Source: Exiguobacterium artemiae 255-15 (GTDB lineage Bacteria > Bacillota > Bacilli > Exiguobacteriales > Exiguobacteriaceae). Taken from it: a stretch of DNA of 64,000 bases. The translations under genes and the position numbers were made by a program. The notes under the pieces were generated by a model. The model saw only the letters and a program-made list of their open reading frames with translations, was not told the DNA's origin and searched no databases. The stretch lies in NCBI RefSeq assembly GCF_000019905.1, contig NC_010556.1:336001-400000 (forward strand). Direction: 5' to 3'. Below, one piece after another: positions 46,330 to 52,410 of the stretch. The first letter of the stretch is position 1. Every line of letters starts with the position of its first letter.

Positions 46330-46962
46330 TCATTTCATCTTACTCAGTAGTTTCTCCAAAGCGATCGGGTCAGTCACCTGCTCATTGCAATGGTCACTGT
46401 CGATACAAATATAATTTCCGATTGCCCGGTATTGATCAGCTGATTGATTCGTCCGGGCGGAGACAAGGGTGACATCACTGTATTGATTGCAGATGGTACA
46501 GATGCCTTTTTGAATCGTCGGAAGATACGTGCCTTCGATTCCAATCCATTCTCCTTTTAAAGGATAGACAAAAAATTTCTTTTTATTCCCGGTGTCGTTC
46601 CAACTTAAATAGGTCGTCTTAAGAAAATCGATTGAGTGAAGGGGCGGGTGCCGTAACTTCTTCGTTTTTCGAAACAGTTGCTGCAGTTGCTGTTCGGTAA
46701 TCGACGGGAAGGATTGGACGAATGGTTGGATATCCTCAAGGTACCGGGCGAAATCCGCCTCGGTTTGAACGGTTCGAACGACCATCAATAACGCCTCCTG
46801 TTCGGCAGTCAAAACCGGAAGCAAATCAAAGATTTTTTTAGAAGCGCTGTAAATGACGGCGTCCCGGACGTCCGGATCATGGACAGCGCTTAACTGTTGA
46901 ATCATCGAGTCGATCTGGCTGCGGATAAAATTATACTGAAATGGCTGAATGAAAGGTTCCAT
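46330..46962 (-). CDS. FusB-like EF-G-binding zinc protein
   Basis: 210 aa. An N-terminal helical bundle (~1-80) is followed by a C-terminal treble-clef-like domain with four cysteines: KGICTICNQ and YICIDSDHCNEQ, the FusB/FusC pattern (C-x2-C, then C-x5-C). FusB proteins bind elongation factor G and release it from ribosomes, giving fusidic acid resistance in staphylococci; many Bacilli carry chromosomal relatives. The Phe/Trp content around LKTTYLSWND and LKGEWIGIEG also fits. Resistance itself is not shown by sequence. Confidence 0.8.
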   Translation of the reverse strand: MEPFIQPFQYNFIRSQIDSMIQQLSAVHDPDVRDAVIYSASKKIFDLLPVLTAEQEALLMVVRTVQTEADFARYLEDIQPFVQSFPSITEQQLQQLFRKTKKLRHPPLHSIDFLKTTYLSWNDTGNKKKFFVYPLKGEWIGIEGTYLPTIQKGICTICNQYSDVTLVSARTNQSADQYRAIGNYICIDSDHCNEQVTDPIALEKLLSKMK

Positions 46963-47883: not shown

Positions 47884-48333
47884 ATGGGGAAAAAACAGTT
47901 GATCGGAACATATGAGAATGAGACGGATTTGATTCGCCAGATTGAAGATTTACACTTTGCCGGATACCTGGAAGAAGATTTATATGTCGTTCTGCAGGAT
48001 AAAACCGATATGGCGATGTTGCGTGGCCAATCGGCAGCCCAGCTTGTTTCGGGAAAACGGACATTATTTGAACGGTTTACAGGGAAGCCGGTGACAGAGG
48101 AAGAGACCCGTGAAGCGTTCGAATCTTTAGGTTTGCCGGAAGGTGACATGGAACAACATGTAGCAAGCGTCAAACACGGGGCTTATGTTCTGTTGGCGGA
48201 TGAAGAAGGGGCAAGACGCCCTAAACCAGAACCCCAAAGTATTTTAGAGAGTGAACCGGAAGGCATTGAGGCTGAGCGGAAGCTTGACCATGAAAACCGG
48301 GCACTTGAGAACGAAAACGACCGGATGTTGTAA
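47884..48333 (+). CDS. YflT-type general stress protein
   Basis: 149 aa. An N-terminal heat-induced/general stress 17M-like domain (LIGTYENETDLIRQIEDLHFAGYLEEDLYVV region) continues with TLFERFTGKPVTEEETREAF and the strand HGAYVLLADEE. The last ~35 residues are a charged, Glu-rich helix. Proteins of this family are SigB-controlled in Bacillus; no convincing SigB promoter was found here. Followed 30 bp later by a universal stress gene. Confidence 0.8.
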   Translation: MGKKQLIGTYENETDLIRQIEDLHFAGYLEEDLYVVLQDKTDMAMLRGQSAAQLVSGKRTLFERFTGKPVTEEETREAFESLGLPEGDMEQHVASVKHGAYVLLADEEGARRPKPEPQSILESEPEGIEAERKLDHENRALENENDRML

Positions 48334-48362
48334 CCGTGCCAGAGTGGAAAGGGTGAACGACG

Positions 48363-48812
48363 ATGGATAGCCATTATCACACGATTTTAGTAGCAGTCGA
48401 CGGCTCCAAAACAGCAGACTTAGCTTTTGAAAAAGCCGTCCAGTTCGCAAAGCTCGATCAAGCGAAACTCGTCATCACACATGTCATCGATATTCAAACC
48501 TTTGCGAATGTCCGGGCGAACCAGCGCTTCATCGATCAAAATGTCACGGAATACGCCCAGGAACTGCTTGATAAATATCAAAAACGGGCGGTCGAGGAAG
48601 GCGTAGCGGAAGTTGAACTGGTCATCGAAAGCGGGTCGCCGAAAACGCTGATTCCGAAAGTCATCGCACCGCGTGTCGGGGCAGGGCTGATCGTCTGTGG
48701 TGCTGTCGGAATGAATGCAATGGAACGAATCATGATCGGGAGTGTCTCTGAAAACATTGCCCGATATGCGAAGTGTGATATCTATATCGTTCGTCCGAAA
48801 ACACTCAAGTGA
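48363..48812 (+). CDS. Universal stress protein (UspA family), ATP-binding type
   Basis: 149 aa. The UspA fold starts HTILVAVDGSKTADLAFEKA and the ATP-binding motif G-x2-G-x9-G-S is complete in CGAVGMNAMERIMIGSVSENI (region 118-138), so it belongs to the nucleotide-binding branch. GAAAGGGTG precedes it. It probably forms a stress operon with the YflT-type gene. Confidence 0.92.
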   Translation: MDSHYHTILVAVDGSKTADLAFEKAVQFAKLDQAKLVITHVIDIQTFANVRANQRFIDQNVTEYAQELLDKYQKRAVEEGVAEVELVIESGSPKTLIPKVIAPRVGAGLIVCGAVGMNAMERIMIGSVSENIARYAKCDIYIVRPKTLK

Positions 48813-48821
48813 ATACCACAC

Positions 48822-48860
48822 AAACAGGCTGTTTCGATGAAGAATCGAAGCAGCCTGTTT
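48822..48860. terminator. Terminator after uspA
   Basis: AAACAGGCTGTTTCGAT / ATCGAAGCAGCCTGTTT stem, near-perfect, between convergent genes; it probably works both ways. Confidence 0.85.
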
Positions 48861-48877
48861 GATGTTCAGTGATCTTT

Positions 48878-49069
48878 TTAAGTTAATAAATAATAAAAAA
48901 TGCCTAAGATGATCAAAATGACTGGCAACAAGACTAAATACATCCAGGACATGTTTTTGGCTGTCTGGCTGTTGCTGTACGTTTCTTCGTTTCGACTCTG
49001 TCCGACCATTACTGTAAAAATAAGTCCAAGTACACAGATTACTAAAGCAATCCAAAATAAGACGGTCAT
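48878..49069 (-). CDS. Small membrane protein (63 aa)
   Basis: Start at 49069 behind AAGGAGG. Two hydrophobic helices (VLFWIALVICVLGLIFTVMV and MYLVLLPVILIILGIFYYLL) flank a polar loop GQSRNEETYSNSQTAKNMS. Function unknown. Divergent from the MarR-MMPL operon. Confidence 0.75.
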   Translation of the reverse strand: MTVLFWIALVICVLGLIFTVMVGQSRNEETYSNSQTAKNMSWMYLVLLPVILIILGIFYYLLT

Positions 49070-49157
49070 GTTTAGCCCTCCTTCAGTAATATAAATCCTC
49101 TCTCCCATCATAACGAAAATTGGATTTACATGTCAGAATAATTGTGACAGTTTGGAG

Positions 49158-49211
49158 TTGACGCCATCTGGTTTAGGGGCTAAACTACTGATATGAGTTT
49201 AGGGGGTAAAC
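49158..49211 (+). promoter_or_regulatory. MarR-MMPL promoter with two palindromic operators
   Basis: -35 TTGACG (49158-49163), 17-bp spacer, -10 TAAACT (49181-49186). Palindromes GTTTAGGGGCTAAAC (49171-49185) and GTTTAGGGGGTAAAC (49197-49211) are 26 bp apart. The first covers the -10, the second covers the transcript start and the ribosome binding site of the MarR gene. Confidence 0.85.
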
Positions 49212-49216
49212 TAATC

Positions 49217-49660
49217 ATGAAAGAAAATCTGAGGGAAGCCGTTCAATTATTTGAAGAGGTGATGATTCACGGGACGGAACGTGTCTTGAAATCAGTTGAT
49301 TCACCGGTGTGGCGTCTCTATTCACCGGAGCAGCTGCATTTGTTAAAGCTGGTCGATAAATATGGACCGATTGCTTCCGGGCGGATTGCCGTCATCCAAG
49401 GAGTTCATAAAAGTGCGATTTCCAATCGTCTGAAAAAGTTAAATGAACACGGCTTGGTCGAAGTCGAACGTTCAGAAGATGATCACCGGACCAAGCGGAT
49501 TATTTTGACGGATGCCGGAAAAGAAGTTGTCGAAGCATCCGATCAAGCGATTTACAGTTATTTGGAACAGTTGATTGATGGCAAGGTCGACGATGACGAA
49601 ATTAAACAATTCATCGAGACGTTCCGAAAAGTCAAAGCCATTTTAAAGATTGAAGATTAA
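49217..49660 (+). CDS. MarR-family repressor of the MMPL exporter
   Basis: 147 aa; start at 49217 behind GGGGGT (an upstream ATG at 49193 would put the operators inside the gene). Winged helix at ~40-105 with recognition segment IQGVHKSAISNRLKKLNEHGLV and wing DDHRTKRIILTDAG. It lies 35 bp before the MMPL transporter gene and behind two matching palindromes, so autoregulation and control of the exporter are very likely. Confidence 0.9.
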   Translation: MKENLREAVQLFEEVMIHGTERVLKSVDSPVWRLYSPEQLHLLKLVDKYGPIASGRIAVIQGVHKSAISNRLKKLNEHGLVEVERSEDDHRTKRIILTDAGKEVVEASDQAIYSYLEQLIDGKVDDDEIKQFIETFRKVKAILKIED

Positions 49661-49695
49661 GTCAGAAAAACAGACACAGAAGAGGTGGAACGGGA

Positions 49696-52365
49696 ATGCG
49701 ACAAATCGTCAAATGGCGTTGGCCGATCGTAATCGTCTTGTTGCTTGCGACAGTCGGATTATTTTTAGCGGCACCAAACTTATCAAAACAGGCGGAAGAT
49801 GCGGGTGCCATTCAGCTCGCGAGTGACACGGATTCACAACGGGCAGCCGATATTTTAAAGGCAGCCGGTGCAAGTGAAGAAACGATTTCGCTGGTTATTC
49901 CGTTAAAGGAAGCCGTCACGAAACAAGATCGGACCGAAATCGGTCAAATCGTCAAAGATTTGGAGAAACTGGATCAACCGGTGACGGGAGTTCTCGATCC
50001 GTTTGAAAGTAAGGAAACGGAAGGACAATTGATTTCAAAAGATAAAAAAACGGTCCTCGTTCCGATTACCGTTGATGGTTCGCAGGAAGAAATCACGGCA
50101 CTCGCCGAGGACATCCGGAGTGATCTCTTACCGGACGACCGGACGATTTATCTGACCGGTGAATCGTTGATTAATGCCGATGTTAATAAAAGTTCACAAG
50201 AAGGATTGAAACGAACCGAATTGATCACAGTCGGTCTGATTTTTGGACTGTTGTTAATCGTGTTCCGTTCGATTGTCACACCATTCGTTCCGTTATTTGC
50301 GGTGGGTGTCACGTATTTAATGAGCCAATCGTTTGTGGCCTTTTTCGTTGATTGGTTCGGATTCCCTGTCTCGAATTTCACGCAGATTTTCCTTGTTGCG
50401 ATTCTCTTCGGGATCGGGACGGACTACTGTATTCTGCTTCTCAGCCGGTACAAAGAAGAATTGACTGCCGGACACGATGTCGAGACAGCCATCGTCAACA
50501 CCTATAAAACAGCGGGACGGACCCTGCTCATCAGTGGTCTTGCCGTCCTCGTCGGCTTCTCGGCGATCGGTTTCGCTGATTTCCCGATCTTTAAATCATC
50601 GGTCGCCGTTGCGGTCGGGATTGCAGTCTTGTTACTGGTTCTCTTTACACTGGTACCGTTTTTCATGGCAACGTTAAAAGAGAAACTGTTCTGGCCGTCT
50701 AAAAATGCGGCGAGTCACCAAGACAGTCGTTTGTGGGCCCGCTACGGCGGATTATCGATTCGTCGTCCATTACTTGCGATGGCCATCGTCGCTGTCGTGA
50801 CGATTCCAACCTTGTTCACGTATGATGACGATCTGTCGTTCAACACTGTCGATGAGATTGGTGCGAAATATGAAACGGTCAAAGGATTAAATGCCATTTC
50901 AGACGGCTTTGGTGCCGGTGAGTCATTACCGGTCAATATTATCCTGAAGGACGATCAAAATATCGTGACTGAAAAAACGGTTCCATATGCAGAACAGTTG
51001 AGCCGTGAACTCGTTAAACTGGACGGGGTCAAAGCCGTTCGCTCGATTTCGCGTCCGACGGGCGAAGTCATTGACGATTTATACGTCGATCAACAACTGA
51101 AACAAGTCGCATCCGGTCTGACGGATGCCAAAGACGGGCTCGGTGAAGTCGGCCAAGGTCTACAGACTGTGGAAGATAATCTGAAGACAATCAGCGGTCA
51201 GCTTCCGGCCGGTGACCAGGCGTCAGCAGGTGCAGCACAATTGCAGCAGGCCGCAGACGGTCTCGGTCAAATTAATCAGCAGTTAACGCTTGTCGGTCAA
51301 GGATTACAGTCAGCGGAAAACATTCCGCAAACTGTCGGGACATTGACAGCGTTATCCGGTCAATTGACACAAGTGCAAACGGGAATCGCACAAGCGGCAA
51401 CCGGAATTGAAACGCAAGGCGCACAAGCCGGTCAACTGGGTAACGGATTAACCCAACTGGCTGATGGTGTCGGATCTGCTAACAATGGGCTTGGTAAAAT
51501 CGAAGACGGTTTAAAAGAAGCAGCCGATTTCCTAAAAGAGATGGGCAACTCGAAAACGATTCGCGGTACCGGGATGTTCATTCCGAAAGATACCTTATCA
51601 AGCAAGGACTTTGAGCCTGTCATCGACCGCTATACGATTGATGACAAGACCGGTCTGAAATTCGAAGTGATTCTGGATGATGATCCCTATTCACCGGAGG
51701 CGATCGAAACGGTCGCTGCGATCAAGAAAACGACAGCGAGTACACTGAAAGATACGCCGCTTGAACAGGCACAGGTTGCTTACGGCGGAATCTCAAGCAT
51801 CAACAGTGACTTAAATGATACGTCAAAAGCCGATTTCTCTCGGACGGTCGTCATCATGATCATCAGTTTGTTCATCGTTCTTGCGATCATGTTCCGTTCA
51901 TTGATCATGCCGCTGTTTATGATCGGTTCGCTCCTGTTGACGTACTATACGTCGGTGTCGATTGCTGAACTGATCTTCGTCAACGGTCTTGGTTATGACG
52001 GCATCAGCTGGGCCGTTCCGTTCTTCGGATTCGTTATGCTCGTCGCTCTTGGTATCGATTACTCGATCTTCCTGCTCGACCGGTTCCGGGAAGAAACGAT
52101 TAATGGACTCGAGACGAATGAAGCGATGTATGTTTCGATGAAGAAAATGGGATCTGTCATCATCACGGCTGCCATCATCCTTGCCGGAACGTTTGGTGCG
52201 ATGATGCCGTCGGGTGTCCTGAGTCTGGTTCAGATTGCAACAATCGTCATCACGGGTCTGCTCCTGTATGGATTAATTGTCTTACCGCTCCTGATTCCGG
52301 CAATCACGGTATCGTTCGGACCGGGTGTCTGGTGGCCGTTCCGTCAAAAGCAAAATAAGAAGTAA
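49696..52365 (+). CDS. MMPL-family RND-type transporter
   Basis: 889 aa with the usual duplicated arrangement: helix 1, an extracellular domain, five to six helices (with FGIGTDYCILLLSRYKEE at ~238-255), a second long extracellular region, and five to six helices (LGIDYSIFLLDRFREE). The second extracellular region (~470-620) is rich in Gln, Gly and Leu with heptad-like repeats (LGEVGQGLQTVEDNL, LGNGLTQLADGVG), resembling the YhgE/Pip coiled region. Similar to B. subtilis YdfJ. It probably exports lipids or amphiphilic drugs using proton motive force. Confidence 0.9.
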   Translation: MRQIVKWRWPIVIVLLLATVGLFLAAPNLSKQAEDAGAIQLASDTDSQRAADILKAAGASEETISLVIPLKEAVTKQDRTEIGQIVKDLEKLDQPVTGVLDPFESKETEGQLISKDKKTVLVPITVDGSQEEITALAEDIRSDLLPDDRTIYLTGESLINADVNKSSQEGLKRTELITVGLIFGLLLIVFRSIVTPFVPLFAVGVTYLMSQSFVAFFVDWFGFPVSNFTQIFLVAILFGIGTDYCILLLSRYKEELTAGHDVETAIVNTYKTAGRTLLISGLAVLVGFSAIGFADFPIFKSSVAVAVGIAVLLLVLFTLVPFFMATLKEKLFWPSKNAASHQDSRLWARYGGLSIRRPLLAMAIVAVVTIPTLFTYDDDLSFNTVDEIGAKYETVKGLNAISDGFGAGESLPVNIILKDDQNIVTEKTVPYAEQLSRELVKLDGVKAVRSISRPTGEVIDDLYVDQQLKQVASGLTDAKDGLGEVGQGLQTVEDNLKTISGQLPAGDQASAGAAQLQQAADGLGQINQQLTLVGQGLQSAENIPQTVGTLTALSGQLTQVQTGIAQAATGIETQGAQAGQLGNGLTQLADGVGSANNGLGKIEDGLKEAADFLKEMGNSKTIRGTGMFIPKDTLSSKDFEPVIDRYTIDDKTGLKFEVILDDDPYSPEAIETVAAIKKTTASTLKDTPLEQAQVAYGGISSINSDLNDTSKADFSRTVVIMIISLFIVLAIMFRSLIMPLFMIGSLLLTYYTSVSIAELIFVNGLGYDGISWAVPFFGFVMLVALGIDYSIFLLDRFREETINGLETNEAMYVSMKKMGSVIITAAIILAGTFGAMMPSGVLSLVQIATIVITGLLLYGLIVLPLLIPAITVSFGPGVWWPFRQKQNKK

Positions 52366-52378
52366 GTCGATTCGACTG

Positions 52379-52410
52379 GTCCATTCGGAAATCATCCGGA
52401 TGGACTTTTT
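52379..52410 (+). terminator. Terminator after the MMPL gene
   Basis: GTCCATTCGG / CCGGATGGAC stem with T run. Confidence 0.85.

Follow-up and report, generated by a model that had tools for sequence, protein, structure and literature searches.

Twin palindromes at the promoter of a marR-MMPL operon in Exiguobacterium: probable operators of the adjacent MarR, their spread in Bacilli and their concerted change in one family

Upstream of a marR gene of Exiguobacterium artemiae 255-15 lie two 15-bp palindromes of closely similar sequence, and the question raised by this locus is which protein reads them and what the pair does to the genes that follow. The window in this study is the whole stretch of 64,000 nucleotides that was analysed (NC_010556.1, positions 336,001 to 400,000, forward strand). 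Our analysis makes it highly likely that the twin palindromes are operators of the downstream MarR, which would repress the operon formed by marR and an MMPL-family exporter gene and is probably released by a long-chain fatty acid or lipid. The initial annotation was right in its main reading of the locus and wrong in its claim of cooperativity; the element is a further member of a described kind, notable for its breadth and for the concerted evolution of the operators in the family coded f3.

Sequence and conservation agree on the arrangement first described for this locus, that is, two 15-bp palindromes with starts 26 bp apart, which overlie the -10 of a marR-MMPL operon and its Shine-Dalgarno (Table 1). 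A 22-nt direct repeat with 86% identity encloses both sites, and five of the six bases of the -10 (TAAAC) fall inside site 1. The promoter is the sole plus-strand promoter-like match in 48800-49300; the scan of this interval found 2 matches over the two strands, where shuffled sequences gave 1.3, and is no proof when taken alone. The AGGGGGT in site 2 was read as the Shine-Dalgarno; the AGGAGGT of the relative L021 at the same place fits this. A longer marR reading frame beginning at the ATG at 49193 has no visible Shine-Dalgarno. The window has no excess of loose matches to the motif (21 with up to three mismatches, where shuffles give 24.6), and palindromes with 5-base arms and five bases between them number 89, against a mean of 76.8 (sd 9.7) in 30 Markov sequences. 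Two of these palindromes lying no more than 40 bp apart and differing by at most one base were found a single time in the window; the 30 Markov sequences contained no such pair. Conservation of the twin sites among relatives is far stronger evidence that the sites are real than these chance counts.

Table 1. Positions of the features of the marR-MMPL operon in the window.
Feature	Position	Strand	Basis and remarks
Sigma-A-type promoter TTGACG-17-TAAACT	49158..49186	+	TTGACG 49158-49163, TAAACT 49181-49186; 9/12 consensus positions; TTGAC and TAAAC recur 5' of marR in relatives (by eye)
Operator 1 (site 1) GTTTAGGGGCTAAAC	49171..49185		Overlaps spacer and -10; sequence, conservation in relatives
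Operator 2 (site 2) GTTTAGGGGGTAAAC	49197..49211		From just past the expected transcript start through the Shine-Dalgarno; sequence, conservation
Shine-Dalgarno AGGGGGT in operator 2	49201..49207	+	9 nt 5' of ATG 49217
marR-type repressor gene, 147 aa, PaMarR ortholog	49217..49660	+	Domain matches, structure match, alignment
MMPL-family (RND) exporter gene, 889 aa	49696..52365	+	PF03176, 395.5 bits against a cut-off of 20.5
Terminator-like hairpin 3' of the exporter gene	52378..52406	+	12 pairs, T tail; consensus match only

The regulator encoded in the window passes the cut-offs of the MarR family (37.2 bits against 24.6 for PF01047 and 37.0 against 27 for PF12802). The best NCBIfam match was TcaR (NF053814, PDB 3KP2), with which the window protein has the MarR family in common; with 50.7 bits against a cut-off of 170 it is not a member of the TcaR group. 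The same MarR is encoded in eight named Exiguobacterium records (71-99% identity), and no plasmid match to 49100-49700 was found. The MMPL gene follows marR on the same strand after a gap of 35 bp, which bears out the operon layout as annotated. The nearest solved relatives of the exporter are the mycobacterial MmpL4/5 siderophore exporters. Terminator-like matches such as the one behind the exporter gene number 7 in the stretch, against 2.8 in shuffles.

The sites follow this MarR gene through a large number of genomes. The gene is present in all 19 genomes of the genus and in 37 of the 38 genomes of the order, and all 37 have twin sites; G021, the sole order genome without MarR at E 1e-20, has no match to GTTKAGGNNNTAAAC. 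Within the genus the spacing is 26 bp in 18 of 19 genomes, the other locus (L031) having 22 bp and one mismatch in site 1, and the left half of site 1 is GTTGA instead of GTTTA in 11 of the 19. In the sister genus twin sites with 27 bp spacing occur in 18 of 18 genomes with the gene. A sample of 398 genomes of the class gave a MarR match at 1e-20 in 58, of which 19 and 18 belong to the two genera of the window's family, 19 to f3 and one each to f15 and f41. A search of family f3 found MarR in 95 of 261 genomes at 1e-25, and both sites were identified by pattern in 94 of these, 23-29 bp apart (26 bp in 45 of 94). The 95th locus, L163, has twin sites by eye with one extra base in site 2 and was left out of the f3 site counts (n = 94). 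Automatic pairing misplaced sites at L073, L110, L121 and L080; the three f3 rows among these were corrected by regular expression, the expression for site 1 being loose. In f15, which we guess to be Bacillus-like, MarR occurs in 18 of 80 genomes. Two 16-bp sites (GTTTA-N6-TAAAC) were found at 16 of these 18 loci, one with one mismatch, at 31-36 bp from each other; downstream and apart from them lies a stretch that by eye resembles a Shine-Dalgarno. The other two loci have a single site. At the f41 locus the two sites, one of them with a mismatch, have a spacing of 22 bp, and the f56 relative L226 has one 16-bp site and no MMPL match within the 2.1 kb examined. A same-strand MMPL match was present at 133 of 134 loci, the exception being L130. 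Overall, the half-site (GTTTA/TAAAC) is conserved, while the length of the spacer, the distance between the sites and their overlap with the Shine-Dalgarno vary.

The exact core of the motif is also largely confined to this locus. A search of the window's genome with GTTKAGGNNNTAAAC returned the twin sites only, as did a search with TAGTTTAGGGGGTAAACTA allowing up to three mismatches, which upholds the earlier description of the motif as distinctive. The proposed genome scan for GTTTAG-N3-CTAAAC gave three additional places with no more than one mismatch to GTTTAGNNNCTAAAC, none with a G-rich centre (control pattern, 21 per strand). In the 38 order genomes GTTKAGGNNNTAAAC had 77 matches, 73 of them at the marR locus; the 4 elsewhere, compared with 68 for the reversed control pattern, rule out a regulon with the exact core. 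MarR is probably a local autorepressor with one target operon.

Comparison with solved structures connects the locus to a regulator with published binding data. The closest solved relative of the window MarR is 7DVN (E 2e-47; the next match is at 4.7e-08), which is PaMarR of Paenisporosarcina sp. TG-14 (PMC8420766). As described in that publication, pamarR adjoins an MMPL gene in the same direction and has two putative palindromic sites in its promoter region; in EMSA one site was filled at low protein and both at higher protein, and binding was lost with a randomised probe (PMC8420766). The crystal had palmitate in the pocket, yet protein carrying palmitate retained its DNA binding, and an effector role is regarded there as unproven (PMC8420766). 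The window MarR and PaMarR are identical at 79 of 144 alignment columns, and VHKSAISNRLKKL is the same in both. Among the 18 lipid-pocket residues named in PMC8420766, 13 are identical and 5 conservative in the window MarR. The window locus therefore has in common with the PaMarR-MMPL operon an orthologous MarR in which recognition helix and lipid pocket are conserved, a same-strand MMPL gene downstream and two palindromes over the promoter, and judged from these sequences it is an ortholog of the described regulator-operator pair. The MarR of L085 is identical to PaMarR at 141 of 144 positions, and its sites, GTTCACCCCCTAAAC and GTTTAGGGGGTGAAC, are 26 bp apart; for these two reasons the sites of the published EMSA probe very probably correspond to the L085 twin sites, a match that we infer. 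Since L085 MarR is near-identical to PaMarR, f3 contains the Paenisporosarcina lineage. In this lineage (L085, L064) site 1 is inverted with respect to site 2, whereas both sites of the window are G-rich on the same strand. DNA binding has been observed by EMSA for PaMarR and is predicted for the Exiguobacterium protein; our literature search did not find binding or expression data for Exiguobacterium MarR.

With this evidence the twin palindromes are very probably the docking sites of MarR itself. A MarR dimer on site 1 would cover the -10 and a second dimer on site 2 would cover the transcript start; both together would exclude RNA polymerase, so that marR and the MMPL gene would be repressed as one operon. 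DNA binding is probably weakened when a long-chain fatty acid or lipid occupies the dimer's pocket, and lipid build-up would then lead to production of the exporter. Autorepression, as first proposed, draws on the conservation of the sites with this MarR, on their absence from G021 and on the binding of PaMarR to two promoter palindromes (PMC8420766); for the window operon we infer the repression itself, its release by lipid and lipid as the cargo of the exporter. That a ligand of the exporter releases the repressor, as suggested, is a plausible reading, weakened by the DNA binding of palmitate-containing PaMarR (PMC8420766). FarR-FarE of Staphylococcus aureus is similar in that fatty acid resistance comes from an inducible RND/MMPL-type exporter under the control of a regulator, but FarR belongs to the TetR family, another regulator family than MarR, and farE is divergently transcribed, as reported in PMC10019231, PMC12671165 and PMC8844917.

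Whether the two dimers act cooperatively is a separate matter, because the initial annotation held that the layout strongly predicts cooperative autorepression. Strong cooperativity would mean that the two dimers touch at the same operators and repress only jointly, and the nearly constant retention of two sites speaks for it. However, the starts of the sites are 22-29 bp apart for 15-bp sites and 31-36 bp apart for 16-bp sites. Helical phase between the sites is not kept, since the window's family has spacings of 22, 26 or 27 bp, f3 of 23-29 bp and f15 of 31-36 bp. Shifts of 4 bp occur among near relatives (27 bp in L070, 23 bp in L071), and two of the 18 f15 loci show a single site. In the PaMarR gel, furthermore, single occupancy precedes double occupancy (PMC8420766). 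A spacing that varies over 22-36 bp, together with this gel, does not carry the prediction, and we consider strong cooperativity unlikely.

A function of the repeat in RNA is less likely by a clear step. Here site 2, plus site 1 in read-through transcripts, would fold and hide the Shine-Dalgarno. At the f3 loci L064 and L066 the arms, if co-transcribed, would give a very stable hairpin (-32.6 and -41.7 kcal/mol, z -5.7 and -9.7). In the window, folding is no better than that of shuffles (z 0.76 for the leader and -0.19 for the longer RNA), which rules out an RNA switch there, and site 1 holds the -10 and hence lies outside the operon's own transcript. It is least credible of all that the sites belong to another regulator and that the adjacent MarR is incidental, a reading that has in its favour only that direct binding was shown for PaMarR and is predicted within Exiguobacterium, and against it the co-occurrence of the sites with this MarR in families f1, f3, f15 and f41, the published binding of the ortholog (PMC8420766) and the 73 of 77 order-wide matches at the marR locus.

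The preferred reading, operators of the operon's own MarR, takes a regulator-operator pair that was described in a single Antarctic Paenisporosarcina and shows it to be part of an operator code of two sites, recurring across several Bacilli families (f1, f3, f15 and one f41 genome). The defined half-site GTTTA/TAAAC makes these MMPL operons findable and testable.

Comparison of the two sites within f3 revealed that they change together. In 93 of 94 genomes the coding strand is C-rich at the centre of site 1, opposite to site 2, and together the two sites form one inverted repeat. Because the two sites face the same way in f1, f15 and f41, the inversion of site 1 is probably derived in f3, the position of the root being assumed. 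The two sites of the same genome have matching bases at position 12 of the oriented operators in 80 of 94 genomes and at position 13 in 87, where shuffling gives 40.8 and 34.3. Across the f3 loci (L054, L055, L063-L079, L083-L163) the outer half-site dinucleotide agrees between the sites in 75 of 94 genomes, and the whole outer half in 74 of 94, including 49 of the 69 in which it is not GTTTA in both. On a tree built quickly from MarR and exporter fragments (support below 80 on 32 of 90 inner branches; L130 and L121 long), the dinucleotide changes 26 times in site 1 and 21 times in site 2, and the joint state 31 times, which gives 16 shared changes. Independent simulation gave means of 5.6, 7.0 and 9.0 shared changes with largest values of 11, 12 and 14 (150 draws each), a result that depends on the rate, the three rates giving mean site-2 changes of 18.0, 22.5 and 28.1 and so bracketing the observed 21. 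Simulated dinucleotide agreement did not exceed 37 of 94, against the 75 observed. Over positions 12-13 the 188 cells comprised 167 Watson-Crick, 12 G-U, 4 A-C and 5 other combinations. Other positions behave differently: position 4 of site 2 is G in 49 of 94 genomes and that of site 1 is T in 94 of 94, with 10 changes and none shared, and positions 7, 9 and 10 drift in site 1 but not in site 2. In those 49 genomes the inner half of site 2 is GTTGA or similar, with G at position 4, and the counterpart T in site 1 pairs with a -10 base.

It is possible, and we propose it tentatively, that in f3 the centre of operator 1 was inverted, which made a 15- to 19-bp inverted repeat with the operators as its arms and a short spacer between them, and that polymerase template switching then repeatedly copied the free outer half-site dinucleotide between the arms with no matching helix change. 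Template switching between inverted repeats is described as homogenising arms and inverting spacers (PMC8604942; PMC8794818), with a yeast case in which a 5-bp arm with a 5-bp spacer became a 16-bp arm (PMC8604942). Among the causes considered, homogenisation of the arms by this route fits the concerted change best; it accounts less surely for the inverted centre of site 1. In the yeast study spacer inversion occurred only with arms above 9 bp (PMC8604942), and the site-1 arms alone are 5-7 bp, which counts against a one-step inversion. The unshared changes at position 4 of site 2 and positions 7, 9 and 10 of site 1 count against simple homogenisation.

Coevolution of repressor and operator is disfavoured as the cause of this pattern. 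Among the 94 f3 MarR proteins no recognition-helix residue consistently follows the dinucleotide class. Within helix residues 61-75 (L064 numbering), residues 61, 63, 65, 66, 67 and 71 are invariant, 64, 69 and 73-75 are nearly invariant, and 62, 68, 70 and 72 vary. In favour of coevolution, 6 of the 12 changes of residue 70 coincide with changes of dinucleotide class, a high ratio that yet yields no consistent code. The operators of L123 (AT/AT) and L075 (AA/AA) differ although the two MarR proteins are identical at residues 54-92. Selection might also maintain the pairing of the arms, as RNA or as a cruciform; the excess of G-U at positions 12-13 leans towards RNA, but six of the G-U genomes are from one clade. 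Family f3 offers a natural test of what keeps copies of an operator alike, selection acting through the repressor or template switching between inverted repeats. If the latter is true, template switching would be a mutational route that matches repeated operators, where covariation is usually taken as repressor-operator coevolution. No report of concerted change in MarR operators was found among the open-licence papers listed in our searches.

Several features were observed in the neighbourhood of the operon. On the minus strand at 48878-49111 lies a 77-aa ORF resembling a small membrane protein, pointing away from marR and with no Pfam match above cut-off, with a promoter-like match CTGACA-18-TATGAT at 49136-49107. 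Upstream of marR on the plus strand (47884-48812) are genes for a YflT-domain heat-stress protein and then a universal stress protein, the latter followed by an 18-bp inverted repeat at 48821-48861. The minus-strand gene at 46330-46962 encodes a protein with an EF-G-binding N-terminal domain (PF07299) and an FBP C-terminal zinc-finger domain (PF16571), the combination of domains that marks FusB-type proteins, which give EF-G protection against fusidic acid.
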